This document shows, one piece after another, positions 8,746 through 19,509 of a stretch of 33,989 bases of DNA. The stretch spans positions 1 to 33,989 of the forward strand of contig PHDT01000023.1 of assembly GCA_002842695.1 (NCBI GenBank), given 5' to 3'. Under the pieces are notes generated by a model. It made no database searches. It had not been told where the DNA came from and was given only the letters and a program-made list of their open reading frames with translations. The position numbers were made by a program, and so were the translations under genes. Position 1 is the first letter of the stretch, and every line of letters begins with the position of its first letter. The stretch is from Bacteroidetes bacterium HGW-Bacteroidetes-10. GTDB lineage: Bacteria > Bacteroidota > Bacteroidia > Bacteroidales > UBA932.

Positions 8746-9249
8746 TTAGGTGAAAATAATCTGAGTGCGCTCCCCGGCGGCAAGTTCATAGAACTGGCCA
8801 ACCGTTATGATATCTTTTACATGCTCGCTCAGGTCCTCTTTTTTGAGTTTGAACATCTCGGCAGCAAGCTTGCATGCATAAATTTCGCCGCCTCCTGCTG
8901 TAATCAGTTCAAAAAACTCATCAACAGGCGGAATGTCCAGTGCAGCCATCTGGCTTTTCATCATGGCCGACACTCCTGCTTCAACTCCGGGAAGTACTCC
9001 CAGAATAGTCGGAAACGGCAGGCCGCCCGGCATTCGCATGGCCGGATTTCCTACTGTTCCTGTATGTAGTTTGTGCATCTGTTTTTTCGTAATTGCATCG
9101 AGGCCAAAGAATGTAAAGAACAGTTTTGCCTCAATGCCCTCCATTACAGCTCCGTTTGCCATAATGAGGGCTGCGTATACATCTTCAATAGTTCCCTTTG
9201 CACATATTATGCAAACTCTCTTAAGAGGTGTCTCTTTTTCTGCACTCAT
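8746..9249 (-). CDS. DsrE/DsrF-like family protein (sulfurtransferase type)
   Basis: 167 residues. Belongs to the DsrE-related proteins that carry sulfane sulfur as a cysteine persulfide in the cytoplasm. Seen: an N-terminal strand RVCIICAKGTIEDVYAAL with C13 and C16, a central region LFFTFFGLDAITKKQ typical of the DsrE2 group, and the conserved IYACKLAAEMF with C126 at the place of the active cysteine. The loop MPGGLPFP is preserved. Last gene of a three-gene operon after an SQR-like flavoprotein and a TusE-type protein, which supports a sulfur-relay job. Its partner and sulfur donor are inferred. Confidence 0.82.
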   Translation of the reverse strand: MSAEKETPLKRVCIICAKGTIEDVYAALIMANGAVMEGIEAKLFFTFFGLDAITKKQMHKLHTGTVGNPAMRMPGGLPFPTILGVLPGVEAGVSAMMKSQMAALDIPPVDEFFELITAGGGEIYACKLAAEMFKLKKEDLSEHVKDIITVGQFYELAAGERTQIIFT

Positions 9250-9297
9250 GGTTGTTTTGTTTAAACAGTTATTATTCAGCTTAAAATTTTATTCCCT

Positions 9298-9609
9298 TTA
9301 AATACAGCCTGTTGGTTTAGGGATGCCGGCAATCTTTGTTGCCTTTTTAAGCGGCGCACCGGGGAACAGAGCATAGAAATCCTTAACATCTACAATTCCC
9401 GATTTTCCGATTGACCGGATAGTGAGTGCATCTCCTGCAAAATGTCTTGTGCGGAGATAATCAAGAACGGCATAATGTTTATCGGTGAGTTCAATACCCT
9501 CCTCTTTGGCCACAGCACCGGCAACATCTTTATTCCATTGCTCCGGTTTAGTGAAGTAACCCTCTTCGTTTACTTCAATCATCTGACCTGCTAATTCTTT
9601 TTGTGCCAT
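9298..9609 (-). CDS. tusE: TusE/DsrC-family sulfur carrier, single C-terminal Cys
   Basis: 103 residues. The DsrC/TusE/DsvC fold is recognised from EVNEEGYFTKPEQWNKDVA, the helix block ELTDKHYAVLDYLRTRHF and the C-terminal arm IAGIPKPTGCI, with C102 as the penultimate residue. In dissimilatory DsrC a second Cys lies about ten residues earlier; here that position is threonine (KKATKIAG), as in TusE. It can therefore accept a persulfide on C102 but not form the intramolecular trisulfide bridge of DsrC. No dsrAB is in the window. It lies between the SQR-like gene and a DsrE-like gene, with 76-bp and 48-bp gaps. Confidence 0.88.
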   Translation of the reverse strand: MAQKELAGQMIEVNEEGYFTKPEQWNKDVAGAVAKEEGIELTDKHYAVLDYLRTRHFAGDALTIRSIGKSGIVDVKDFYALFPGAPLKKATKIAGIPKPTGCI

Positions 9610-9620
9610 AATTTCTCTGG

Positions 9621-9660
9621 ATTTATATGTTTGTTTACAGATTTATATGTTTGATTACAG
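9621..9660. repeat. 20-bp tandem direct repeat before tusE
   Basis: ATTTATATGTTTGTTTACAG is followed immediately by the same 20 bases with one change. It fills the gap between the SQR-like gene and tusE, about 12 bp upstream of the tusE start codon on the minus strand. Function unknown. Confidence 0.9.
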
Positions 9661-9685
9661 AATTATTCTGACGATTCTGAATTTG

Positions 9686-10936
9686 TTATTTTACGTGATG
9701 CTTTGGATACCTCTTTCCCATCATGGACATGTGATCTGTCACAGGGAGAGATCTTCCCGGCAACAGCAGGTTCCAGTACATCCATTTGAAAAACATCTTT
9801 CCGAAATAGTTGAGCCTTGTATCTTTAAGCAAACCGAAAGGGCCAATTACCGGATATGGGTAGACACCGGGAAGTGGCTCTGTGTCGTAGTTGAAGTCAA
9901 TCAGGGTTCCTTTGCTGTATGAGGTTACTATATAACAGTTTGCGTGACCGTCAAACTTTGCCTGCAGTGGTTTTCCCTCAATTGCACACAAAAGGTTTTC
10001 CACTACAACTTCTGCTGCAAAGTGAGCAACCGAACCGGCTTTGGAAGTTGGCAGATTTGCCGCATCTCCAATTACAAAAATATTTGAGTGACCCGCAGCC
10101 TGAAGAGTAAATTTGTCTGTAGGTACAAAATTCAGGTCATCTCCCAGTCCGCTTCTCTCTATCATATCATCTCCCTTGTTGGTTGGGATGGTTACAAGCA
10201 GGTCGAACTCCACTCCGGTTCCCGCATAGTCGATTATCTTTTTCGCGGCATTGTCAACCTCTGCAACATTGTAGTCAGGAATCACTTTTATGTTCTTCTC
10301 TTCCACCACCTTGCTAAGCATCTGAGTAGCTATCGGCTTTGTAAATACCCCCGGCAGAGGAGTAACAAGGCTGATTTCCACTTTGTCGCGCATCCCTTTT
10401 CTCTTGAAATAGGCATCGGCAAGGAAAATGAATTCAAGTGGGGCAACCGGACATTTGTACGGAAGTTCGGTTATGTTAACAACCATTTTGCCACCTTTCC
10501 AGGTTTCAAGATATTTTGCAAGAGCAACAGCTCCCTCAATTGTATAGAAATCAAAAATTTCCTTTCTCCACAAATCGCCCAGAAGACCCGGTGTCTCCTC
10601 GGGTGCTATGCGAGTGCCTGTGGCAATGATGAGAAAGTCGTAATCAAGAATTTTCTCTGAATTTTCCAGCAGGACCTTGTTCTCGTCAGTGACAATTTTG
10701 TCAATTTTGGCATAAATAATATTTACACCCTTTGGGAAAAAGTTCTTTTTTGGTTTGACTACGTCTGATTCGTTATAGATTCCAAATGGTACAAACAGGA
10801 AACCCGGCTGATAGTAGTGAGTTTTGTCCTGATCTACTACAGTTATGTTCCAGGTTTTGACAGGCAATTTCTTCCTGAGCTTGTTGGCCATGAGTGTTCC
10901 GGCCGTTCCAGCACCTAAAATAACTACATTCTTCAT
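9686..10936 (-). CDS. SQR-like FAD-dependent oxidoreductase
   Basis: 416 residues. Two-dinucleotide-binding flavoprotein of the sulfide:quinone oxidoreductase / FCSD group. FAD-binding GAGTAG is at residues 8-13, PGFLFVPFG at 44-52, IIATGTRI at 103-110 and the C-terminal FAD motif IFVIGDAANLPTSKAGSVAH at 286-305. C162 in YKCPVAPLE is the conserved SQR cysteine and C334 is a candidate for the C-terminal one; the first cysteine of classical SQRs has no counterpart near residues 120-130. Amphipathic C-terminal segments (FFKWMYWNLLLPG) could anchor it to the membrane. First gene of the tusE-dsrE operon, so sulfide or persulfide oxidation to quinone is likely but unproven. Confidence 0.83.
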   Translation of the reverse strand: MKNVVILGAGTAGTLMANKLRKKLPVKTWNITVVDQDKTHYYQPGFLFVPFGIYNESDVVKPKKNFFPKGVNIIYAKIDKIVTDENKVLLENSEKILDYDFLIIATGTRIAPEETPGLLGDLWRKEIFDFYTIEGAVALAKYLETWKGGKMVVNITELPYKCPVAPLEFIFLADAYFKRKGMRDKVEISLVTPLPGVFTKPIATQMLSKVVEEKNIKVIPDYNVAEVDNAAKKIIDYAGTGVEFDLLVTIPTNKGDDMIERSGLGDDLNFVPTDKFTLQAAGHSNIFVIGDAANLPTSKAGSVAHFAAEVVVENLLCAIEGKPLQAKFDGHANCYIVTSYSKGTLIDFNYDTEPLPGVYPYPVIGPFGLLKDTRLNYFGKMFFKWMYWNLLLPGRSLPVTDHMSMMGKRYPKHHVK

Positions 10937-10957
10937 ATCTTAAATATTTGAATCAAC

Positions 10958-10965
10958 CAAAGATA
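10958..10965 (-). promoter_or_regulatory. Predicted -7 box for the SQR-tusE-dsrE operon
   Basis: The minus strand reads TATCTTTG, a full TAnnTTTG match, 22 bp before the ATG. The predicted start is near 10954. Confidence 0.55.
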
Positions 10966-11009
10966 TATTAATCTTTCAATATAAATATTTGCTAATGGAA
11001 TTTATTTTC

Positions 11010-11025
11010 TGTGATATTGCTCACA
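11010..11025. promoter_or_regulatory. Crp/Fnr-type operator upstream of the SQR-like gene
   Basis: TGTGATATTGCTCACA is a perfect TGTGA-N6-TCACA palindrome (extended by one C/G pair on each side). Its centre lies about 63 bp before the predicted start near 10954, close to the -61.5 position used in class I activation. The same palindrome occurs at 17320-17335 beside the regulator gene. Confidence 0.72.
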
Positions 11026-11078
11026 GATTTTTCCAGAAAAAACAACTAAACAATATGCCAGATAATGGTTTCAGAGGG

Positions 11079-11390
11079 AAACTCTGGCAGAGTTTTTAGC
11101 AAGTTCTTGAATGTTAGGTAAGAACAATATTTTAGTTAGGTATTTTTTTAAATTTCAGAATAGTAATGTGCAGGTAATATGCAAGTTCGTAAAAACTCTG
11201 CCAGAGTTTTAAAGCGCGCGCAGCGCTGCACCTTCACCGGCAGCGAAGCTGACGGTACCTTCTTTGAAATACCACCTGCCCTTTTACCCCTGGGGAAAAG
11301 TGTCAGATCATTGATAAACAGGTCCTTATGCAAAACTGGAATTTTTCACAACTAGTTGTATATGTGGTGTTTGACACTTTTCCCCAGGGG
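11079..11390. repeat. Composite double-hairpin repeat, copy 2
   Basis: Same architecture as 5208-5555 with different arms. First pair: 11079-11098 with 11190-11209 (20 bp, perfect, 91-nt loop). Linker: 11214-11268, matching 5356-5410 at 54 of 55 positions. Second pair: 11287-11305 with 11372-11390 (19 bp, perfect, 66-nt loop). The second pair is related to the element at 24893-24996. The arms are also locally self-palindromic (CCCCTGGGG; AAACTCTGgCAGAGTTT), so alternative folds exist. Confidence 0.88.
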
Positions 11391-11431
11391 AAATTGCCCT
11401 GGAGTAAATGCACATTACTTGACATAGTGAT

Positions 11432-11461
11432 AAAAAAAAGAGACCGCTATATGACGGTCTC
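11432..11461 (-). terminator. Terminator of the Qmo-like operon
   Basis: On the minus strand GAGACCG pairs with CGGTCTC (11440-11446 and 11455-11461) and is followed by a run of eight T. It sits 55 bp after the qmoC-like stop. Confidence 0.88.
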
Positions 11462-11516
11462 AATTTCAGTATTAACAGCCAATACAAAGGCTGATTAATC
11501 TCTTTTGTGTTATCAG

Positions 11517-12587
11517 TTACTTCTTCGCAGATTCTGCCGGCACGCTTTTGCGAAGCTTGTCAAAGTACATTGCGAAAGATCTGTAAAGGAAGTGTGTCCA
11601 CTTGCCAAATGGTACAATTATCACTGCCCACTGTACAAGGATTGTGAAGTGAAGCAGGAAGAGCCAGAAGTTGTTCTCCAGGATCTCCAGGTCAATGAAT
11701 ACCTTTACAAAGAATGCTGTAACTCCCATCAGGAAGAGCCAGATTACAAAGAACCAGTCAGAGGGACGGGATTTTTTGCTTACCTGGTGCTTTTGCTTAA
11801 TGCGGCCCAGTACAAATACAAAGGTTACAATGAATACCACAGCACTAACTGCATAACCCAGCAGGTTCACAAAGATTGATTCATTTGAGAACCAGTCAAG
11901 GAATACAGTAGTAAACAGCAGTGTCAGGTAACCTATTACCAGTACAAAGTGGGCGAACCATCTTGCCTGATTGTCGTCGCAGCCGAGTGACCTCTTCTGA
12001 GTAAACATGTGAACAAACAGCTCTCCGGCAGATTTGTAATATGCCTTAAAGGGAACTTTGTATCCGGGTTTTACCACTGTCATGTACCACATTCTGATAA
12101 TGTTTGGCAGGAGGATTACTGCAAAAACAGTCGCTATTGCATACATCTCGAAGAGGTGTGCAAAGTGCATGATTCCCTCCTGGTCAAAAGATTGGGTGAA
12201 TGAATATACAATCACACCAACCGCAACAAGAATCATTGCAATTATGTTGGCTAAGCCAGATCTGTGAAATAAACCAGACAAACCTGTCCAGTCATATTTT
12301 GCTGTAAGCCATCTGCGCAGAGACATCATAAGCTCACCCGGATCTGCTGTCTGCGGACAGTTAACCGAACAATCGCCGCAATAGTAGCACAGCCATGGTT
12401 TCAGTGACGATTCCACACCCTTTTTATCTCCGGTTTCGCTCAGCCTCACCATTGATCTGGGGAAAGAATCCTCTCCGGTTGAGAGGGAGCAAACGGCTGT
12501 ACATGTACCGCAGTTGTAGCATTTGTTGAAATCAACTGCTCCGTATCTTTTTAGCTCTTTGCCGAATTTTGTATTAATTCTGCTCAT
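11517..12587 (-). CDS. QmoC-like membrane subunit (HdrC-HdrE fusion)
   Basis: 356 residues. The N-terminal HdrC-type domain carries two 4Fe-4S motifs: C23, C26, C29, C33 and C67, C70, C73, C77. It is followed by about six predicted membrane helices (112-131, 146-165, 211-232, 241-262, 278-300, 306-326). Histidines in or near the helices (H141, H144, H213, H313, H332) could ligate heme b. This is the layout of QmoC, which passes electrons between cytoplasmic HdrA-like subunits and menaquinone. Last gene of the operon. Its 5' end overlaps the small winged-helix-like gene by 14 bp, which indicates coupling. Alternative: another HdrC/NarI-type quinone module. Confidence 0.85.
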   Translation of the reverse strand: MSRINTKFGKELKRYGAVDFNKCYNCGTCTAVCSLSTGEDSFPRSMVRLSETGDKKGVESSLKPWLCYYCGDCSVNCPQTADPGELMMSLRRWLTAKYDWTGLSGLFHRSGLANIIAMILVAVGVIVYSFTQSFDQEGIMHFAHLFEMYAIATVFAVILLPNIIRMWYMTVVKPGYKVPFKAYYKSAGELFVHMFTQKRSLGCDDNQARWFAHFVLVIGYLTLLFTTVFLDWFSNESIFVNLLGYAVSAVVFIVTFVFVLGRIKQKHQVSKKSRPSDWFFVIWLFLMGVTAFFVKVFIDLEILENNFWLFLLHFTILVQWAVIIVPFGKWTHFLYRSFAMYFDKLRKSVPAESAKK

Positions 12588-12864
12588 TTTTCTTCAGTTT
12601 ATAGGTAAAGTACTCGTCCATATCGTCAACCTTCCCTGCAGCTACAAATCCAAACTTTACCATGGACATAAGAATGTACATTGTATGTTCCAGATTCATT
12701 CCGGTCTCTTTGCTAAGCTGGGCAATTGTCTTGTCTCCCTTTGAGAGAGATTCTGTTATGGCCTTTTTCTCTTTGTTGAACTGTTTCAGGTTGTTCTTCA
12801 CCTCTTCGGAAACTTTGCGCTCTTCGCGCAAAATTTTCACTGTCATAGTTTTTTCTTCCGACAT
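12574..12864 (-). CDS. Small winged-helix-like protein within the Hdr operon
   Basis: 96 residues, no close family recognised. A charged helical N-terminus is followed by TIAQLSKETGMNLEHTMYILMSMVKFGFVAA, which reads like helix-turn-helix plus recognition helix, and a short strand-rich wing (YFTYKLKKN). No cysteines, so no metal site. It is placed between the HdrA-like and QmoC-like genes (13-bp gap upstream, 14-bp overlap downstream), which suggests stoichiometric production with the complex. It may be a structural or regulatory subunit rather than a free transcription factor; this cannot be decided from sequence. Confidence 0.7.
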   Translation of the reverse strand: MSEEKTMTVKILREERKVSEEVKNNLKQFNKEKKAITESLSKGDKTIAQLSKETGMNLEHTMYILMSMVKFGFVAAGKVDDMDEYFTYKLKKNEQN

Positions 12865-12877
12865 ATCATTTTACGCT

Positions 12878-14614
12878 TTAAAGTGCAAGTACATCTATCA
12901 TATCCTCCATGTCGCGGTTTGTAAACGAGATGAGCTCTATCGAGTCCGACGGGCAAACAGGCAGGCACATTCCGCATCCTTTGCAGGTGCTCTTGTTAAT
13001 TGAAGCCTTCTGACCCCCGGCTGTTTCGACCATTGCAACAGCGTTAAACGGACATGCTTTGCTGCAGGCGTCACACCAGTTGCAGGTATCTGCATTTACA
13101 TATGCGATTATTGGCTCCAGTTCAAGTTCTCCCTTGCTCACAAAAGAGTGAGATTTTGCTGCAGCCGAAAGTGAAGAGTTAACTGACTCCATAACATTCT
13201 TAGGTCCCTGACAGGTTCCTGCGATTGTAATACCGTCAATTACAGTTTCAACCGGACGCAGCTTCATGTGAATCTCATTGTAGAAGTTGTCACGTCCTTT
13301 AGGAAGTTTAAAGAGAGTTCCAATGGATGTGTCGCTGTCCGGAACCATTCCTGTTACAAGAACAACCAGGTCTGCAATCACCTCAGATTCTCTCTTTTCA
13401 GTAAGAACATCCAGTGCCTTTACAGAAATTCCTCCCTCTGCAGCCGAAACTACAGGCGGTTTTTTGTCCATAAACTGAATATAAACATCTCCTTTAGAAT
13501 TAGACTCCTTGTAGATTAGCTCTTGTTTTCCGTATGTGCGGATACCCTTGTGGAAATGGAAATTCTCAATTTCCGGAGCAATTGCCCTCACATCAAGCGA
13601 AGCCTGAACGGCAGCAGTACAGCAGTATCTTGAGCAGTACTTGTTATCACCCTTAACCTGACGGCTTCCCACACAGTAAATGTATGCTATGGAGTTAATC
13701 TCTTTTCCGTTGTAAACCAGCTTGCCGGATCCGCCTTCAGCAGCCTTTTTCTGACCGCCCATAAGCTTTCTGAACTCCGGAAGGGTAATAACATTTGGAA
13801 CAGTTGCAAAGCCGAATTCCCCCTCTGCGGGTGTGTAGGAGTTGAAGCCTGTAGATACAAGAACAGATCCCGCATGAATCTCTTTTTCTGTATTACCCTG
13901 AGGACCCGATATTCTGACTGTCAGTTTAAAATCCCCTATGTTTCCGCGGGATGCGACAACCTCTGCATTTGTAATAAGAGTTATTCTCTCTTCAGAGGCG
14001 ATCTCTTTCTGAAGTCTTTCCAGAAGCTCTTTTCCCGAAATGTTCTCAGGACTGATTGTTTCAAGCTCGTTCAGCTTTCCGCCAATTTTGCTGTCTCTCT
14101 CAATGAGATAAACATCATCATTCATTCTGGCAAGAGAGATTGCAGCCTTAAGACCGGCCACACCTGCACCAATAACAGCAACAGCTCTCTTTGATTCTAT
14201 AACGATAGGTTCCAGCGATTCGGCCAGTCTTGCCTTTGCAATTGCAGCCTTAACAAGATGAATTGCCTTCTCTGTTGCACCCGGCTTGTTGTCTGAGTGT
14301 GCCCATGAGGCCTGCTCGCGTATGTTTGCGTGTACATAGTTGTATTTGTTCAAACCAGCCCTTTCACTTACACCCCTGAAAGTTGTAAGGTGAAGCTTTG
14401 GCGAACAGCTTGCAACCACTATCCCGCTTAAATTGTTTTCTTTAATATCGGCCTCCATATCCTTCTGATTGGAATCACCGCAGGCAAACATTGTTGTTTT
14501 GGCCATTATGACGCAGTCTTCGTCTTTAACCGCTTCACGGACCCTTTCAATGTCTACGTAGTCGGAGATATTTCCGCCGCATGCACATATATATACACCA
14601 AGTTTCTTTTTCAT
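12878..14614 (-). CDS. HdrA-like iron-sulfur flavoprotein (QmoB-like, no MvhD domain)
   Basis: 578 residues. N-terminal HdrA domain with GVYICACGGNI (C10, C12), then C45 in FACGDSN and C70 in VASCSPKLH. The FAD site GAGVAG is at 149-154, with YCSRYCC further on. Two C-terminal ferredoxin clusters are seen: CNWCDACSKACP and CKGCGMCLPVCP (within the last 75 residues). The insertion clusters found after the FAD site of full-length HdrA are not present. In SRB, QmoB continues into an MvhD domain; here that part is a separate gene upstream. Likely a cytoplasmic electron-transfer or bifurcation-type subunit; five bases separate it from the next HdrA-like gene. Confidence 0.87.
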   Translation of the reverse strand: MKKKLGVYICACGGNISDYVDIERVREAVKDEDCVIMAKTTMFACGDSNQKDMEADIKENNLSGIVVASCSPKLHLTTFRGVSERAGLNKYNYVHANIREQASWAHSDNKPGATEKAIHLVKAAIAKARLAESLEPIVIESKRAVAVIGAGVAGLKAAISLARMNDDVYLIERDSKIGGKLNELETISPENISGKELLERLQKEIASEERITLITNAEVVASRGNIGDFKLTVRISGPQGNTEKEIHAGSVLVSTGFNSYTPAEGEFGFATVPNVITLPEFRKLMGGQKKAAEGGSGKLVYNGKEINSIAYIYCVGSRQVKGDNKYCSRYCCTAAVQASLDVRAIAPEIENFHFHKGIRTYGKQELIYKESNSKGDVYIQFMDKKPPVVSAAEGGISVKALDVLTEKRESEVIADLVVLVTGMVPDSDTSIGTLFKLPKGRDNFYNEIHMKLRPVETVIDGITIAGTCQGPKNVMESVNSSLSAAAKSHSFVSKGELELEPIIAYVNADTCNWCDACSKACPFNAVAMVETAGGQKASINKSTCKGCGMCLPVCPSDSIELISFTNRDMEDMIDVLAL

Positions 14615-14619
14615 CTCGA

Positions 14620-15924
14620 TTACTGTGATTTTTGATTCAGATAACTTATTGCCTCCGTAGATGCAGCTCCTGCAGAGAGGATTGAATCCGGAATATCCTT
14701 TGGACCTGTTGCTGCTCCGGCAACAAATACACCGTCAATAGAGGTTTTTGCAGGGCTGAGAAGCGGGTCGCTCTGTTTTACGAAGGAGAGACCATCCAGT
14801 TCCAGTTTGTGACTCTTGAAAAGATCTGCAGCCTCTTTGTTTGGCTTAACACCAACAGAGAGAACAACCATATCGTGTTCTGCCTCCTTTAGTTTGCCGG
14901 TTGCAACATCTTCATATCTGAGAGTAAGGTTTCCGTTCTCCTTCTCGGTAATTTTACCAATTTTTCCCTTTACGAAGCGGACACCCATTGAAACAGCCTG
15001 TTCGTAGAACTCATCGTATCCCTTGCCAAACGCCCTTATATCAATGTAGTAGATTGTAATGTCTGCCATTGGAAGAGCTCCCAGCAGAAGCTGAGCCTGC
15101 TTGATTGAGTACATGCAGCAGATTTGTGAACAGATTGGGTTTCCCATTGAATCATCTCTCGATCCGGCGCAAAGTACATAGGCAATTTTATCCGGAACTT
15201 TTCCGTCGCTTGAACGAAGAATAGTGTGGAAGGGACGGGTAGGGGCCAGGAGGCGCTCCATCTGAATAGATGTTATCACATTTTTGGCCGTGCCGTAGCT
15301 GTATCTCGGAACATTTGTGGGGTCGTACAGTCTGAATCCTGTTGCAACAATTGCAGTTTTAACATTGAAGATATACTCCTTTGGCTTCATTGTAAAGTCG
15401 ATGCAACCCGGAGGGCACACCTTTTCGCACGCTCCGCAAAGAGTACAGTTATCAATATCAATTGCAGCCACCTTTGGGCTGGCTATGCTGAAAGGTATGT
15501 AAACCGCCTTTCTTCCAACAAGACCATACTGGAACTGGTCCTTTACAATCACAGGACATGCCTGCTCACAGAGCTGACATGCAGTACAATCCTCAGCAAC
15601 CACATAACGTGGTCTCTGAGTCATTTTAACCACAAAACTCTGCTCCCCAAGTTTGTCAATTGAGGTTATATCACTCTCTGTAAAGATTTTGATATTCGGA
15701 TGGCGGGATATTTCAGATACTTTTGGTGTAGTGATACATGCAGAGCAGTCCAGTGTCGGAAACACCTTGCTGAGCATAATCATTTTACCTCCCACTGAAA
15801 GCCTGCTCTCCACAAGAACTACCTTGTAGCCATTGTTTGCAAGATTTAGAGCTGCCTCTCCTCCTGCAATTCCTCCTCCTATAACGATAGCATCATAAGT
15901 GAGGGTTATTGGTTCTTTTTGCAT
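14620..15924 (-). CDS. HdrA-like iron-sulfur flavoprotein (QmoA-like)
   Basis: 434 residues. FAD motif GGGIAGG is at 16-22, followed by ESRLSVGGKM and LDCSACITTPK (C60, C63). Two inserted ferredoxin clusters follow: C113, C116, C119, C123 and C160, C163, C166, C170, plus C174. Later come AGSRDD, CSQICCMYS and FVAGAATGPKDIPDSI, all HdrA hallmarks. It lacks both the N-terminal CxCG domain and the C-terminal ferredoxin of full HdrA, the complement of what its neighbour at 12878-14614 retains. Together the pair adds up to one full HdrA set. Six bases separate it from the MvhD-like gene. Function: flavin-based electron transfer within a Qmo/Hdr complex, inferred. Confidence 0.87.
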   Translation of the reverse strand: MQKEPITLTYDAIVIGGGIAGGEAALNLANNGYKVVLVESRLSVGGKMIMLSKVFPTLDCSACITTPKVSEISRHPNIKIFTESDITSIDKLGEQSFVVKMTQRPRYVVAEDCTACQLCEQACPVIVKDQFQYGLVGRKAVYIPFSIASPKVAAIDIDNCTLCGACEKVCPPGCIDFTMKPKEYIFNVKTAIVATGFRLYDPTNVPRYSYGTAKNVITSIQMERLLAPTRPFHTILRSSDGKVPDKIAYVLCAGSRDDSMGNPICSQICCMYSIKQAQLLLGALPMADITIYYIDIRAFGKGYDEFYEQAVSMGVRFVKGKIGKITEKENGNLTLRYEDVATGKLKEAEHDMVVLSVGVKPNKEAADLFKSHKLELDGLSFVKQSDPLLSPAKTSIDGVFVAGAATGPKDIPDSILSAGAASTEAISYLNQKSQ

Positions 15925-15929
15925 AATTC

Positions 15930-16325
15930 TTATTTGTCGGTTTTCAGTAAATACTCATTAAAACTCTTTACCTGCTTTACAAAAGATTCGCTGCACACAG
16001 AGCAGATTGCCGCCATTCTAAGGCGGGCTGGCTCTATGTTTTTTTCTCTCATAAGCTCATGTGTCTTTTCCACCAGGGCTCCGGTCTTTTCTGTGCAACT
16101 CTCGCCATACATGCAGTCGCTTCCGTCTGCGGCAATGAATACACCGTCAAAACCCTTTTCATAGGCTCTTAATATCCACCTTGGTTTGATCCCGCTTGAA
16201 CATGGTACAGCTATGGTATAAACCTGAGGAGGATAGTGCAGCTTAAGAAGTCCCGCCATGTCAATGGCGGGATCTGAGATCTTTTCAGTAGAGAAAACCA
16301 GGATTTTTGCACTCCTATTGCTCAT
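15930..16325 (-). CDS. MvhD-like small iron-sulfur protein, stand-alone
   Basis: 131 residues. Resembles the delta subunit of F420-nonreducing hydrogenase (MvhD), which links HdrA to a partner and also forms the C-terminal domain of QmoB. Seen: LLKLHYPPQVYTIAVPCSSGIKP with C42, RAYEKGFDGVFIAADGSDC with C71, GESC with C77, and C108/C111 in ICSVCSESF. The N-terminal FCCxWC-type cysteine block of typical MvhD is missing (FSTEKISDPA in its place), so the usual 2Fe-2S site may be altered or built with the C-terminal pair. It sits exactly where a split-off QmoB tail would be expected functionally, ahead of the two hdrA-like genes. Confidence 0.78.
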   Translation of the reverse strand: MSNRSAKILVFSTEKISDPAIDMAGLLKLHYPPQVYTIAVPCSSGIKPRWILRAYEKGFDGVFIAADGSDCMYGESCTEKTGALVEKTHELMREKNIEPARLRMAAICSVCSESFVKQVKSFNEYLLKTDK

Positions 16326-16336
16326 CTCTTTTACTG

Positions 16337-16597
16337 TTAAATTTCGTTCTTACGCATGTAGATTTTGAAGTAGCCGTTCTCCTCGATTGTTCCGAGGTAG
16401 TCATGCCCCTGTTTTGAACACCATTTTGGTATATCTACCTTGGTTCCTTCGTCTGCAGAAAGTACCTCCATAATCTCTCCCTCTTCAATGGTTCCAAGGG
16501 CTTTCTTTGCCTCGAGAAGTGGTCCCGGACATGCTGTTCCTCTTGCGTCTACACTTTTGCTTACTTCCAAAGCTCTTAGTTCTTCTGTTGTCATCAT
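16337..16597 (-). CDS. tusA: TusA-family sulfur carrier
   Basis: 86 residues. Small cytoplasmic protein that carries sulfane sulfur as a persulfide. The signature DARGTACPGPLLEAKKAL has the CPxP motif with C23 as acceptor. A second Cys lies in KWCSKQGHDYLG (C60), a motif frequent in dissimilatory-type TusA. Two ATG codons are adjacent (16597 and 16594); either could be used. It is 11 bp upstream of the MvhD-like gene and 49 bp after DsrE2, inside the Hdr operon, consistent with the tusA-dsrE2 pairing known from sulfur oxidisers. Confidence 0.92.
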   Translation of the reverse strand: MMTTEELRALEVSKSVDARGTACPGPLLEAKKALGTIEEGEIMEVLSADEGTKVDIPKWCSKQGHDYLGTIEENGYFKIYMRKNEI

Positions 16598-16646
16598 GAT
16601 AATTTATGTTTTAAGGTTTATTCTTATTTATTCAGGTTGTTTTATT

Positions 16647-17213
16647 TTATATGAAAAGCTGAGCTGCACTCTCTCCTGCATCTGCAGCAAATGTTGCTGC
16701 ACCTGCATATGATAAATGAGGATAGTCAATAAACTCCTCTTTTTTGAAGCCCATAAGACCCATTGACATTTCACATACTATTATCTCAATGCCCAGTTCG
16801 CCTGCGGTTTTAAACATATCGTCCAGTGAGAGAACATTGTTTTTTCTCATCAGATATTTAATCATTACAGGTCCCATTCCGCACATATTCATATTGGACA
16901 GTTTAAGCGAATTCTTCCCTTTTGGAAGCATGAAGCCAAACATTTTTGAGATGAAATCTTTTCCTTTGGGGCTCTTTTTTGGATCCCTCAATGCGCTAAG
17001 CGACCAGAAAGAGAAAAACATCTTCACTTTTGTGTCCATGGCAGCCGATGCTATGCCTATTATCATTGAGGCCATAACTTTGTCCAGGTCACCTGAAACA
17101 ACAGCCATTGAAAGCTGATCTTTTCTGCTGTTTTCGATTTTTGTGATCTTCTTTTTAAGTTTTTCCACCTGCTCCTGAAGTTGGTTAACTTCTTGTTTTA
17201 GTTGCTCTTGCAT
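16647..17213 (-). CDS. DsrE2-family protein
   Basis: 188 residues. The N-terminal 30 residues form a Gln/Lys/Glu coiled coil (LKQEVNQLQEQVEKLKKKI). The DsrE2 core follows: LSMAVVSGDLDKVMASMIIG, FFSFWSLSAL, MFGFMLPKG, NMNMCGMGP (C111) and IIVCEMSMGLMGF with C147, the conserved persulfide cysteine of this group. Some DsrE2 proteins are membrane-associated; here hydrophobic patches are moderate. First gene of the seven-gene operon and divergent from the regulator gene. Sulfur transfer with TusA is inferred from the family and the adjacency. Confidence 0.87.
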   Translation of the reverse strand: MQEQLKQEVNQLQEQVEKLKKKITKIENSRKDQLSMAVVSGDLDKVMASMIIGIASAAMDTKVKMFFSFWSLSALRDPKKSPKGKDFISKMFGFMLPKGKNSLKLSNMNMCGMGPVMIKYLMRKNNVLSLDDMFKTAGELGIEIIVCEMSMGLMGFKKEEFIDYPHLSYAGAATFAADAGESAAQLFI

Positions 17214-17257
17214 GATTAATTAAAAATGTAATTGATAGTGTCAATAATTTTGGTGCA

Positions 17258-17265
17258 CAAAGAAA
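17258..17265 (-). promoter_or_regulatory. Possible -7 box for the DsrE2-Qmo-like operon
   Basis: The minus strand reads TTTCTTTG, one mismatch from TAnnTTTG, 45 bp before the ATG. If used, the start is near 17254 and the operator at 17320-17335 would be centred near -73, about one helical turn further than the site in front of the SQR-like gene. Weak call. Confidence 0.35.
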
Positions 17266-17317
17266 TAGATAAATAGACCCGAAATGAAGTAAATGTGTAT
17301 GATATGGACATAGTTTT

Positions 17318-17351
17318 TTTGTGATGTAAATCACATTAATTTGTAACTTTG
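17318..17351 (+). promoter_or_regulatory. Predicted promoter of the regulator gene
   Basis: TTTG (17318-17321) and TAACTTTG (17344-17351) match the Bacteroidota -33 and -7 elements with a 22-bp spacer. The start codon at 17356 begins only 5 bp after the -7 box, so the transcript would be leaderless or nearly so. Confidence 0.55.
17320..17335. promoter_or_regulatory. Crp/Fnr-type operator between regulator and Qmo-like operon
   Basis: TGTGATGTAAATCACA is a perfect TGTGA-N6-TCACA palindrome. On the plus strand it overlaps the -33 region and spacer of the regulator promoter, a position expected to give autorepression. On the minus strand it lies upstream of the DsrE2 operon promoter, a position expected to activate. 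Confidence 0.72.
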
Positions 17352-17355
17352 CAGT

Positions 17356-18033
17356 ATGAAAAACAATTGCTCTCTTTGTGACTATAAATCTGCTGCCGCA
17401 CAGAAGCTCACTCCGGATGAATTAAAAAATCTGGCACCAAATTGTGTAACCGTTAAATTTAAAAAAGGAGACACAATCATCAGGCAGGGCACATACTCCA
17501 CAAATGTTGCCTACCTGAAGAAGGGTCTTGTCAAAATTCACATAGACGGACCATATCATGTGCAGGTTGTCAGAATTGTAAAGCCTCGCAATTATCTTGG
17601 TCTGCCCACAACATTCGGGGACAAAATCAATCAGTATTCTGTTACTGCTATTGATGAGTCGGAGGTTTGTTTTATCGATATCACAACATTCCGCCAGATG
17701 CTTCAGATGAATCCGGATTTCACAAATCAGATTATGCTTGAACTCTGTAAAAGCGAGCTGGAGTCATATCAGAAATGTGTTAACAGGACACAGAAACAGA
17801 TAAGAGGAAAACTTGCGGATGTTCTGCTCGATTTCGCAGATAATATTTTCAAGGCAGATACCTTTACTATCAATGTTACTCAGGAAGATCTGGGGAACCT
17901 GGTAGATGCCTCAAGAGAGAGTGTCTCCCGTGTAATGGCGGAGTTTTCAAAGGATGGAATAATTGAGATGAAGGGTAAACAGGTTAAAATTCTGGATAAA
18001 ACTTCGCTTCAGCTTATCAGCAAAAAAGGATAA
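17356..18033 (+). CDS. Crp/Fnr-family transcriptional regulator with FNR-like cysteines
   Basis: 225 residues. The N-terminus carries CSLC (C5, C8), then C30; the effector beta-roll spans about 30-120. C105 in SEVCFIDITTF aligns by eye with the fourth Fe-S cysteine of E. coli FNR (C122 in SMVCEIPFETL), so a 4Fe-4S oxygen or redox sensor is plausible. After a dimer helix comes the helix-turn-helix VTQEDLGNLVDASRESVSRVMAEF. Its recognition helix SRESVSR keeps R187, E188 and R192, the positions that in CRP read TGTGA. Both TGTGA palindromes in the window lie in front of sulfur operons, so these are the likely targets. Confidence 0.88.
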   Translation: MKNNCSLCDYKSAAAQKLTPDELKNLAPNCVTVKFKKGDTIIRQGTYSTNVAYLKKGLVKIHIDGPYHVQVVRIVKPRNYLGLPTTFGDKINQYSVTAIDESEVCFIDITTFRQMLQMNPDFTNQIMLELCKSELESYQKCVNRTQKQIRGKLADVLLDFADNIFKADTFTINVTQEDLGNLVDASRESVSRVMAEFSKDGIIEMKGKQVKILDKTSLQLISKKG

Positions 18034-18035
18034 AA

Positions 18036-18671
18036 ATGGATACAGGAATGCCCGGTGTGCCGGCAGAAAGCAGCGGCAGGAACTATTTCAAATATGGTCA
18101 GAATGAGATCTTGCATTTGAAGAGAGTATGTCCCAGGCTTTCAGAAACAATAGATGAAAAAGGCATTCTGGTAAGAGAGGTGGTTCCGGATCTCTTTACA
18201 GCTCTTATATCCAGTGTAACCTCACAGCAGATTTCCGGCAAAGCTGCCCAGACAATCTGGAGAAGGTTTTCTGAACTGGTTGGGGAGATAACCCCGGAGA
18301 GGATTCTAGCCATTAATCCGGATGACATCAGAAAGTGCGGAATATCAGGCCGCAAAACCGAATACATTACAGGAATTGCAAAAGCTGCGGCTGATGGAGT
18401 AATCAGCTTTGATGCCCTCCGCTCTATGGAGGACAGCGAGGTTATTGCTAAATTATCTGCACTCAGAGGGGTTGGTGTCTGGACAGCCGAGATGCTGCTT
18501 ATCTTCTCTTTGCAGAGACCCGATGTGCTTAGCTGGGGTGACCTGGCTATCAAGAAGGGAATTATGAAACTTTACGGGCTGGAGTCTCTCACAAGGGAGC
18601 AGTTTGAAGAGTACAGAAGGCTCTTCTCTCCGTACAACTCTGTTGCTTCTCTCTATCTCTGGGAAATTTGA
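18036..18671 (+). CDS. HhH-GPD DNA glycosylase (AlkA / 3-methyladenine type)
   Basis: 211 residues. Removes alkylated bases in base excision repair. Seen: SSVTSQQISGKAAQTIWRRF (helical domain), ISGRKTEYITGIAKA, the helix-hairpin-helix LSALRGVGVWTAEMLLIFSL and the following RPDVLSWGDLAIKKG with the catalytic aspartate D169. No Fe-S cysteine cluster at the C-terminus, unlike EndoIII or MutY. It starts 2 bp after the regulator stop and is almost certainly cotranscribed with it. Length is typical of the short AlkA-like proteins lacking the N-terminal domain of E. coli AlkA. Confidence 0.88.
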   Translation: MDTGMPGVPAESSGRNYFKYGQNEILHLKRVCPRLSETIDEKGILVREVVPDLFTALISSVTSQQISGKAAQTIWRRFSELVGEITPERILAINPDDIRKCGISGRKTEYITGIAKAAADGVISFDALRSMEDSEVIAKLSALRGVGVWTAEMLLIFSLQRPDVLSWGDLAIKKGIMKLYGLESLTREQFEEYRRLFSPYNSVASLYLWEI

Positions 18672-18699
18672 ATCTGATAAATCCAGGCGTATCTTTTTG

Positions 18700-19509
18700 C
18701 TAAAACTGCTTGTAAATTAGCCAGAATGACATTGCGCATACAGCCAGTGCAATGGCGTAATTTATAAATCTTGCACCAAGCTTTACGGCAAACTTAGAGG
18801 CAATAAATGCTCCTGTGACGTTGCCAATAGCATATATGAGCGCAACAGGCCAGTTAATCTGACCATGCCAGATGAAAATTGAGAGGGCAAGAGGTGTGTA
18901 GATAACAACTGCAAACTGCTTGATTCCGTTTGCCCTGAGAATATCCAGCCCCAGCATATAGAATGAGCCAAAGATTATAAGTATTCCCACTCCTGCGTGG
19001 GTGAATCCGCCGTAAGCCCCAATAAATACAAATGCAATGAACTTTAATACTCCAAATTTCCTGCTCCTTTTCTCCATTTCCGGGGTAATCACCCGTCCCT
19101 CTCTGCCTTTCTGACTGTAGAGCAGAAGTACTGCCATAATGGGCAGCATGATTCCCATTGCAACTTCCATCACGGCCGGATTGAGAACAGCAGCAGCCTG
19201 AGCACCTGCTATTGAGCCTATTGCTACAGGGATTCCGACTTTTGTTCCCAGACCCAGATCGAGATATCCGCTCTTTTTGAAAACGACAGATGAAACTGCA
19301 AACTGGGCAAGTACGCCTACCCGGCTTGTGCCGTTTGCCACATTAATGGGCATTCCCATTGCCATAAAGAGAGCATAGGAGAGGGCCGTGGCCATTCCTG
19401 CCAGGGTATTTACAAAGCCGACAAATATTCCCACTCCTATGAGTATGGCAATAATCCCTGCCGAAAAGGGATCGCTTGTAAGAAGGTAGTCTGCCAGGGA
19501 TGTAAACAC
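18700..19509 (-). CDS. TauE/SafE (TSUP) family membrane transporter
   Basis: 269 residues with about eight hydrophobic segments and no signal peptide. The family exports sulfite, sulfoacetate or other sulfonates, or takes up sulfur anions. Typical features: VGFVNTLAGMATALSYALFMAMGMPINVANGTSRVGVLAQF near the N-terminus and the repeat-related GAYGGFTHAGVGILIIFGSFYMLGLD half. It faces the regulator-glycosylase pair convergently. It has its own predicted promoter (TACATTTG, minus strand, 19553-19560). Proximity to the sulfur operons suggests a sulfur anion, probably sulfite or thiosulfate, but the substrate is not readable from sequence. Confidence 0.85.
   Translation of the reverse strand: MFTSLADYLLTSDPFSAGIIAILIGVGIFVGFVNTLAGMATALSYALFMAMGMPINVANGTSRVGVLAQFAVSSVVFKKSGYLDLGLGTKVGIPVAIGSIAGAQAAAVLNPAVMEVAMGIMLPIMAVLLLYSQKGREGRVITPEMEKRSRKFGVLKFIAFVFIGAYGGFTHAGVGILIIFGSFYMLGLDILRANGIKQFAVVIYTPLALSIFIWHGQINWPVALIYAIGNVTGAFIASKFAVKLGARFINYAIALAVCAMSFWLIYKQF

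Follow-up and report, generated by a model that had tools for sequence, protein, structure and literature searches.

A conserved TusA-DsrE-Qmo-like operon of Bacteroidales with a putative role in quinone-linked sulfane-sulfur chemistry

In this study, which was based on a 33,989-nt stretch (the window) of contig PHDT01000023.1 from Bacteroidetes bacterium HGW-Bacteroidetes-10 (assembly GCA_002842695.1, 2.41 Mb) and on comparative genomics, we describe module A, an operon that encodes a DsrE2-type protein, TusA, an MvhD-type protein, two HdrA-like flavoproteins resembling QmoA and QmoB, a 96-amino-acid (aa) protein that we call U96 and a QmoC-like membrane subunit. Its gene set is conserved in the loci examined, a predicted operator lies beside a dedicated regulator gene, and the operon is separate from the Qmo genes that accompany apr. 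We propose, at a probability of roughly one half, that module A encodes an Apr-independent, quinone-linked complex of the HdrA/Qmo type, which exchanges electrons with sulfane sulfur bound to TusA and DsrE and probably reduces it to sulfide. The original prediction had placed a sulfur relay and an Hdr/Qmo complex in a Bacteroidota host that lacks dsrAB, aprAB and HdrB, and had left the direction of the chemistry open; this agrees with the source genome, in which no dsrAB-type, aprA or HdrB match was found.

Relatives of module A were located through the QmoC-like protein only, by scanning a genome collection, and the best 80 of 187 were kept, so that the counts describe the closer relatives; the titles of these 80 records read as Bacteroidota, save two that are titled Chlorobi or Chlorobiota. 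Gene presence was counted in the 48 loci that have at least 7 kb upstream. The tusA, mvhD, both hdrA and qmoC genes were present in all 48, DsrE2 in 36 and the divergent regulator in 40. The remaining 12 loci have a different, 141-aa DsrE-family gene upstream of tusA at the place of DsrE2, and a DsrE-family gene hence leads the operon in 48/48. Co-occurrence in related genomes, which had been envisaged for ten genes, was upheld for the seven-gene core in the loci examined and failed for the ten-gene set. Among 393 sampled Bacteroidales genomes, 45, the source genome included, have a QmoC-like protein of at least 57% identity, in addition to one fragment, a count to which neighbouring genes do not contribute. 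In a wider sample of the class, 53 of 395 genomes matched this protein at E 0.001, only six of them over most of its length (the source genome, G277 with 62% and four others with 36-50% identity), while the rest were short Fe-S matches; module A is therefore patchy outside the order sample. Viral contigs scanned with the same protein yielded no relative. Module A is carried by Labilibaculum euxinus A4. G277 holds two copies on one contig (L111 and L112), whose QmoC proteins share 62% and 38-41% identity with that of the window; the second copy is followed by genes that, by reading, encode acetate kinase and phosphate acyltransferase. In three class members (L113, L114 and L115), an HdrA/QmoC/MvhD set lies beside Mvh-type [NiFe] hydrogenase-like genes, identified by reading, instead of TusA/DsrE; a CRP-type gene was read in L113 and L115, with a tblastn match in L115 only.

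All of the genes that had been named for the window proved to be intact open reading frames (ORFs) that match their Pfam or NCBIfam families, including the CRP/FNR-type regulator and TauE (Table 1). However, the conserved U96 gene had been overlooked, and the TauE gene, which had been counted in, and the HhH-GPD glycosylase gene lie outside the conserved unit. Both HdrA-type flavoproteins score below the NCBIfam HdrA2 cut-off (494 and 458 vs 1100 bits) and the QmoC-like protein below that of the qmoC equivalog (155.6 vs 300 bits). Similarly, neither DsrE2-type protein of the window reaches the equivalog NF047629 (97.8 and 60.4 vs 210 bits), nor does TusA reach NF001423 (47.7 vs 78 bits), even though the Pfam cut-offs, DrsE_2 and TusA respectively, are passed. 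The QmoA-like protein is homologous to the solved HdrA chains 8rvv and 5odc. Several residues are well conserved: C147 of the module A DsrE2 is invariant in 42 extracted rows, window included, C23 of TusA in 57 rows and five cysteines of MvhD in 59 rows, and the 80 QmoC-like rows have eight invariant cluster cysteines and histidines at positions 141, 144, 193, 213, 313 and 332 at frequencies of 0.91-1.00.

In 68 of the 80 loci U96 is a gene of its own, whereas in 12 it makes up the C-terminal end of the QmoB-like protein (five fusions detected by tblastn, seven by eye from the C-terminal sequence), and because of these fusions it is likely to be a subunit of the Qmo-like complex. Its AlphaFold2 model (mean predicted local distance difference test score, pLDDT, 86.7) is a winged helix, whose best Foldseek matches are ArsR/MarR-type repressor folds at E of at least 1e-3, and given these matches U96 may also bind DNA. 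At seven loci, the QmoA-like ORF has 902-966 aa, and the one that was scanned (L063) contains an NAD(P)H oxidoreductase domain of the GltD type and thereby connects the complex with NAD(P)H. The QmoB-like protein of the window is 578 aa long compared with a median of 643 aa and, by eye, lacks an insertion that is present in longer copies, e.g., that of L049.

From the 80 loci and the window, 44 intergenic regions that separate the regulator gene from module A could be cut out, and 39 of them contain the exact palindrome TGTGAN6TCACA, against a shuffle mean of 0.01. In the source genome this palindrome occurs three times: twice in the window, once before each of its two operons, and once within an ORF. 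As a reversed control pattern occurs five times in the same genome, the three sites are no excess, and it is their placement that counts. We infer that the divergent CRP/FNR-type protein binds this sequence. An FNR-type box, TTGAN4TCAA, was rejected as the operator, since it was found in 2/44 regions compared with a shuffle mean of 0.56 and a largest shuffle value of 3. Three cysteines of the regulator, C5, C8 and C105, are invariant in 45/45 sequences and C141 is present in 95% of 44, which would be compatible with a possible Fe-S, thiol or persulfide sensor. Further exact sites lie within ORFs in the CF and GWF2_40_14 genomes, and four more are intergenic in Labilibaculum, where the regulon may be wider.

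The second operon of the window, module B, encodes a type III sulfide:quinone reductase (SQR)-like flavoprotein, TusE and a second DsrE2-type protein. Whereas the original prediction had treated the ten genes as one set, they form two modules: an SQR gene follows qmoC in only one of the 58 loci that have at least 3 kb downstream, namely the near relative L031, whose QmoC is 96% identical to that of the window. A type III SQR above the cut-off was found in seven of the 35 genomes that were searched in full (the source genome and 34 of the 80 hosts, picked mainly for long flanks), with a TusE and a DsrE2-type gene downstream in all seven. Since SQR-TusE-DsrE2 is kept together in 7/7 genomes and adjoins module A only in the window and in L031, module B is a separate operon that has been placed beside module A in this lineage. 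The SQR model, NF049943, represents the selenoprotein subtype of type III SQR; the ORF in the window has no internal stop and has Cys at 162 and 334, both of which are conserved in 7/7 copies, as are C16 and C126 of the DsrE2-type protein. TusE was rightly described as a single-Cys protein: C102 is its sole Cys column in 7/7 copies, and the CysA/CysB pair ten residues apart that marks two-cysteine DsrC is absent. The other five module B hosts have a second CRP-type gene divergent from the operon (5/5), and a DUF1641 gene stands between SQR and TusE in both of those scanned. The exact operator is present before SQR in L031 too but was not found before module B in these five hosts, which have no more than variants that differ from it at one or two positions; because of this, the shared control of both modules that the operator sequence indicates is supported for this lineage only. 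The stretch between the two operons (11079-11393) contains an imperfect hairpin of 52 nt and inverted repeats whose cores are AAACTCTGGCAGAGTTTT, possibly remnants of the event that joined module B to module A.

Table 1. Positions of the two modules, their genes and the neighbouring features in the window.
Feature	Position	Strand	Remarks
Module A	11517-17213	-	order dsrE2-tusA-mvhD-hdrA/qmoA-hdrA/qmoB-u96-qmoC; CRP/FNR-type gene divergent
DsrE2-type sulfur carrier, module A gene 1	16647..17213	-	PF13686 (DrsE_2) 150.6 bits
TusA sulfur carrier	16337..16597	-	PF01206 83.9 bits
MvhD/FlpD-type protein, 131 aa	15930..16325	-	PF02662 99.5 bits
QmoA-like HdrA flavoprotein, 434 aa	14620..15924	-	HdrA2 model positions 132-561, 494 bits
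QmoB-like HdrA flavoprotein without MvhD domain, 578 aa	12878..14614	-	HdrA2 model 458 bits; C-terminal Fer4 pair
U96, predicted winged-helix protein, 96 aa	12574..12864	-	no Pfam/NCBIfam match
QmoC-like membrane subunit (HdrC-type [4Fe-4S] pair and membrane domain)	11517..12587	-	NCBIfam qmoC 155.6 bits
CRP/FNR-type regulator	17356..18033	+	PF13545, PF00027; divergent from module A
Predicted operator TGTGAN6TCACA	17320..17335	.	before module A
Predicted operator, copy 2	11010..11025	.	before module B
Module B	8746-10936	-	sqr-tusE-dsrE2; 580-bp gap to module A
Type III SQR-like flavoprotein, module B gene 1	9686..10936	-	NF049943 644 bits, above cut-off of 525
TusE, single-Cys DsrC family	9298..9609	-	PF04358 92.7 bits
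DsrE2-type protein 2, module B gene 3	8746..9249	-	PF13686 90.4 bits
HhH-GPD glycosylase	18036-18671		beyond regulator, outside conserved unit
TauE	18700-19509		outside conserved unit; in 4/48 loci

The absence of aprA and dsrAB, which had been noted for the window, extended to the source genome. The source genome gave no match to PF01077 (dsrAB-type), aprA, PF01747 (sat) or PF00384 (molybdopterin oxidoreductase); its completeness is 93.5%, and each absence is therefore likely rather than certain. PF01747 was matched in 0/35 genomes, although this model gives no match in E. coli either and a sulfurylase of that type would escape it. PF01077 was matched in 11/35 genomes, always by ORFs of 561-844 aa; DsrA and DsrB are both shorter. 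PF00384 is lacking in 15/35 genomes, the source genome included, and cytochrome bd is present in 34/35, again including the source genome. AprA was found above the cut-off in 4/35 genomes (L117, L118, L119 and L120; aprB was not searched for), and beside it both HdrA-type proteins, MvhD and QmoC were matched in a row. This set is only 31-34% (QmoA-like), 26-28% (QmoB-like), 35-39% (MvhD) and 23-25% (QmoC-like) identical to that of the window, and in L117 and L120, for which ORFs were listed, the QmoB-like and MvhD parts form one 703-aa ORF. Because these four hosts hold an apr-linked qmo set in addition to module A, with 23-39% identity between the two, module A is not the partner of Apr and is distinct from the Apr-partner Qmo in the genomes examined. 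The QmoC tree separates the four apr rows from the others at 100/100 support and on very long branches; long branches in the tree were flagged, and the one firm result is this separation from the apr type. No PF01747 match accompanies aprA and the qmo genes in L117-L120.

Because the ten genes are not inherited as one set, a single relay from DsrE via TusA to TusE, which had been thought to feed the complex, is not general; of the 35 core-bearing genomes, only 12 yielded a DsrC/TusE-family protein. The source genome has one CCG (HdrB/D-type) protein, on contig C18, which scores best with the TmcB model and then with HmcF and DsrK, all under the cut-off, and lies near a two-cysteine DsrC (both cysteines, ten residues apart) that is unlinked to module A; an adjoining membrane protein has weak HmcE and TmcC matches (28 and 25 bits). 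This operon (L129:8450-10710) comprises DsrC, TmcC/HmcE-like and TmcB/DsrK-like genes followed by a gene of the cysteine desulfurase family, without DsrAB, and the same unlinked operon is present in Bacteroidales bacterium CF (L130) and in L131. A two-cysteine DsrC with a CCG match at most 2 kb away was found in 7/35 genomes. A search that allowed two mismatches gave no operator before three unlinked DsrC operons, and shared control by the regulator is therefore not supported for them.

TusA and a DsrE-family protein accompany the complex throughout, which suggests that it acts on sulfane sulfur carried as persulfide. The membrane complex would consist of the QmoA-like and QmoB-like proteins, the detached MvhD, U96 and the QmoC-like subunit. 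Sulfane sulfur would be loaded as persulfide onto DsrE and TusA, where, from the roles of these families, we take C147 of DsrE2 and C23 of TusA to be the persulfide sites; sulfide would be released reductively at the HdrA/MvhD side, and QmoC, whose quinone link is assumed from homology, would exchange electrons with menaquinone. On its own, menaquinol has little reducing power towards sulfane sulfur, and for this reason the HdrA flavin probably takes electrons both from quinol and from NAD(P)H or ferredoxin as the low-potential donor, as has already been proposed for Qmo. Anaerobes that ferment would have an electron sink in such a system. Module B, behind the same operator in this species, would tie the sulfide/polysulfide chemistry of the quinone pool to similar carriers, and the unlinked DsrC operon with its TmcB/DsrK-like protein may offer a second thiol/disulfide route. 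Reduction is favoured because no sulfite or sulfate enzyme was found and because hosts of this kind are mostly anaerobes. A Labilibaculum strain is among the sulfide-tolerant isolates described in PMC11129491, and in the parts of that report available to us no sulfide oxidation was observed in culture.

Several points weigh against this reductive proposal. Both the direction of the sulfur chemistry and the catalytic site are putative and unproven, and module A contains no HdrB or other known persulfide-cleaving site, which leaves the S-S cleavage step unexplained. The QmoC tree does not unite the TusA-linked rows as a clade; it requires three label changes and places a hydrogenase-linked row inside. 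SQR is by name an oxidative enzyme, and the cytochrome bd of nearly all genomes means that these hosts are able to use an oxidant. The Labilibaculum strain of PMC11129491 is another than the strain of locus L070 and its cultures, according to the accessible parts, were anoxic, and thus the lack of sulfide oxidation is weak evidence. Moreover, in the sections available of PMC4911364 and the work cited there, Qmo and Hdr were proposed to oxidise sulfane sulfur to sulfite, i.e., in the opposite direction. A bolder form of our proposal, in which module A performs DsrAB-, HdrB- and molybdenum-independent sulfane-sulfur respiration through a flavin-based confurcating quinone complex, with TusA/DsrE in the position that a hydrogenase has in related HdrA/QmoC loci, U96 as a new subunit and a distribution over roughly one in ten Bacteroidales species (an estimate that uses only the QmoC-like protein), can be advanced only tentatively.

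Module A could instead be oxidative, which we consider somewhat unlikely: persulfide or sulfide sulfur on TusA/DsrE would be oxidised, HdrA and QmoC would hand the electrons to menaquinone, from where they would reach cytochrome bd or a different acceptor, SQR would be the entry step and the oxidised product would be exported, perhaps via TauE. The carriers are of the same kind as in the sulfur-oxidising heterodisulfide reductase-like (sHdr) pathway, yet module A has no HdrB, and a TmcB/DsrK-like protein is the sole CCG protein detected in the genome. In the source genome the same operator precedes SQR, and TauE lies two genes from the regulator, but an SQR above the cut-off was found in only 7/35 genomes and TauE in only 4/48 loci. 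The presence of cytochrome bd in 34/35 genomes and the fact that donating electrons to menaquinone is energetically easier than drawing them from menaquinol would fit oxidation, whereas the lack of a PF01077 or aprA match in the source genome does not. The proposal made for Qmo/Hdr in sulfur disproportionators, as far as the sections of PMC4911364 at hand describe it, is of this oxidative type.

A role in homeostasis, in which the complex limits cytoplasmic persulfide for sulfide tolerance or thiolation supply and does not support growth by respiration, appears unlikely, since a quinone-linked membrane complex containing two flavoproteins and a number of Fe-S cluster sites would seem an expensive means of mere detoxification. 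The three invariant cysteines of the regulator, as a possible thiol or Fe-S sensor, would nevertheless suit it, as would some record titles (SulCav, Zod), which, read as labels, suggest sulfidic places, and the available parts of PMC11129491 suggest such a role for the heterodisulfide reductase genes of sulfide-tolerant isolates. Finally, a canonical Qmo displaced from an AprAB encoded elsewhere would explain the QmoABC-like domain set, but is refuted for the genomes examined, save for losses in assembly gaps, by the absence of aprA above the cut-off from 31/35 genomes, the source genome included, and by the separate, strongly diverged qmo genes of those that have it.

Bacteroidales are common in anoxic and in sulfidic places but are seldom credited with sulfur respiration, because surveys use markers such as dsrAB, aprAB and psr. 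The presence of the module A gene set in many Bacteroidales suggests a little-studied use of sulfur for respiration or redox balance, and if the operon does reduce sulfur, a group of sulfur reducers has been overlooked by marker-based surveys. No description of a TusA-DsrE-Qmo-like operon in Bacteroidales was found in the open-licence literature, judged mainly by titles and the beginnings of abstracts and including passages of PMC9040765; on this partial basis, the operon is a variant of the known HdrA/Qmo kind that is itself apparently undescribed. Heterodisulfide reductase genes were noted in sulfide-tolerant isolates, Bacteroidota among them, in the accessible parts of PMC11129491, and those of PMC10504309 state that the role of Apr-less, HdrA-like Qmo complexes is open. 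Module A provides a concrete system for this role, which can be tested in cultured hosts.

Compared with known systems, module A shares with the apr-linked QmoABC of type I two HdrA-derived flavoproteins, an MvhD domain and a QmoC with HdrC-type clusters and a membrane domain, but differs in its separate MvhD gene (fused to QmoB in type I), in U96, TusA and DsrE and in the lack of aprAB. The sHdr system comprises HdrB, a lipoate-binding protein, TusA/DsrE-type carriers and an HdrA-type complex. In module A, too, an HdrA-type complex is accompanied by carriers of the TusA and DsrE types, but it has the quinone subunit QmoC and no HdrB; no lipoate-binding protein (LbpA) was named among the 26 window proteins scanned, and no whole-genome search for it was made. 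The type II QmoABC (QmoAB of V. moutnovskia and Ammonifex), compared by description only, is also an HdrA-like Qmo without Apr, and TusA or DsrE partners are not mentioned in the section concerned. In sulfur disproportionators, Qmo and Hdr-type proteins were proposed to act on sulfane sulfur, and their HdrL-type HdrA, which has NADH/FAD domains, sets a precedent for the fusion of a GltD-type domain to the QmoA-like protein; these organisms differ in having Apr, Sat and Dsr, and the parts available to us describe no TusA-DsrE-Qmo operon (PMC4911364, PMC12142623). The YTD cluster (yedE-tusA-dsrE) of disproportionators also unites tusA with dsrE-family genes, but, as described in the accessible part of PMC13293266, lacks Qmo/HdrA genes, and no yedE was seen in module A. 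Lastly, HdrABC-MvhADG and the L113-L115 loci have HdrA, MvhD and QmoC homologues in common with module A, in which TusA and DsrE occupy the place of the hydrogenase subunits.

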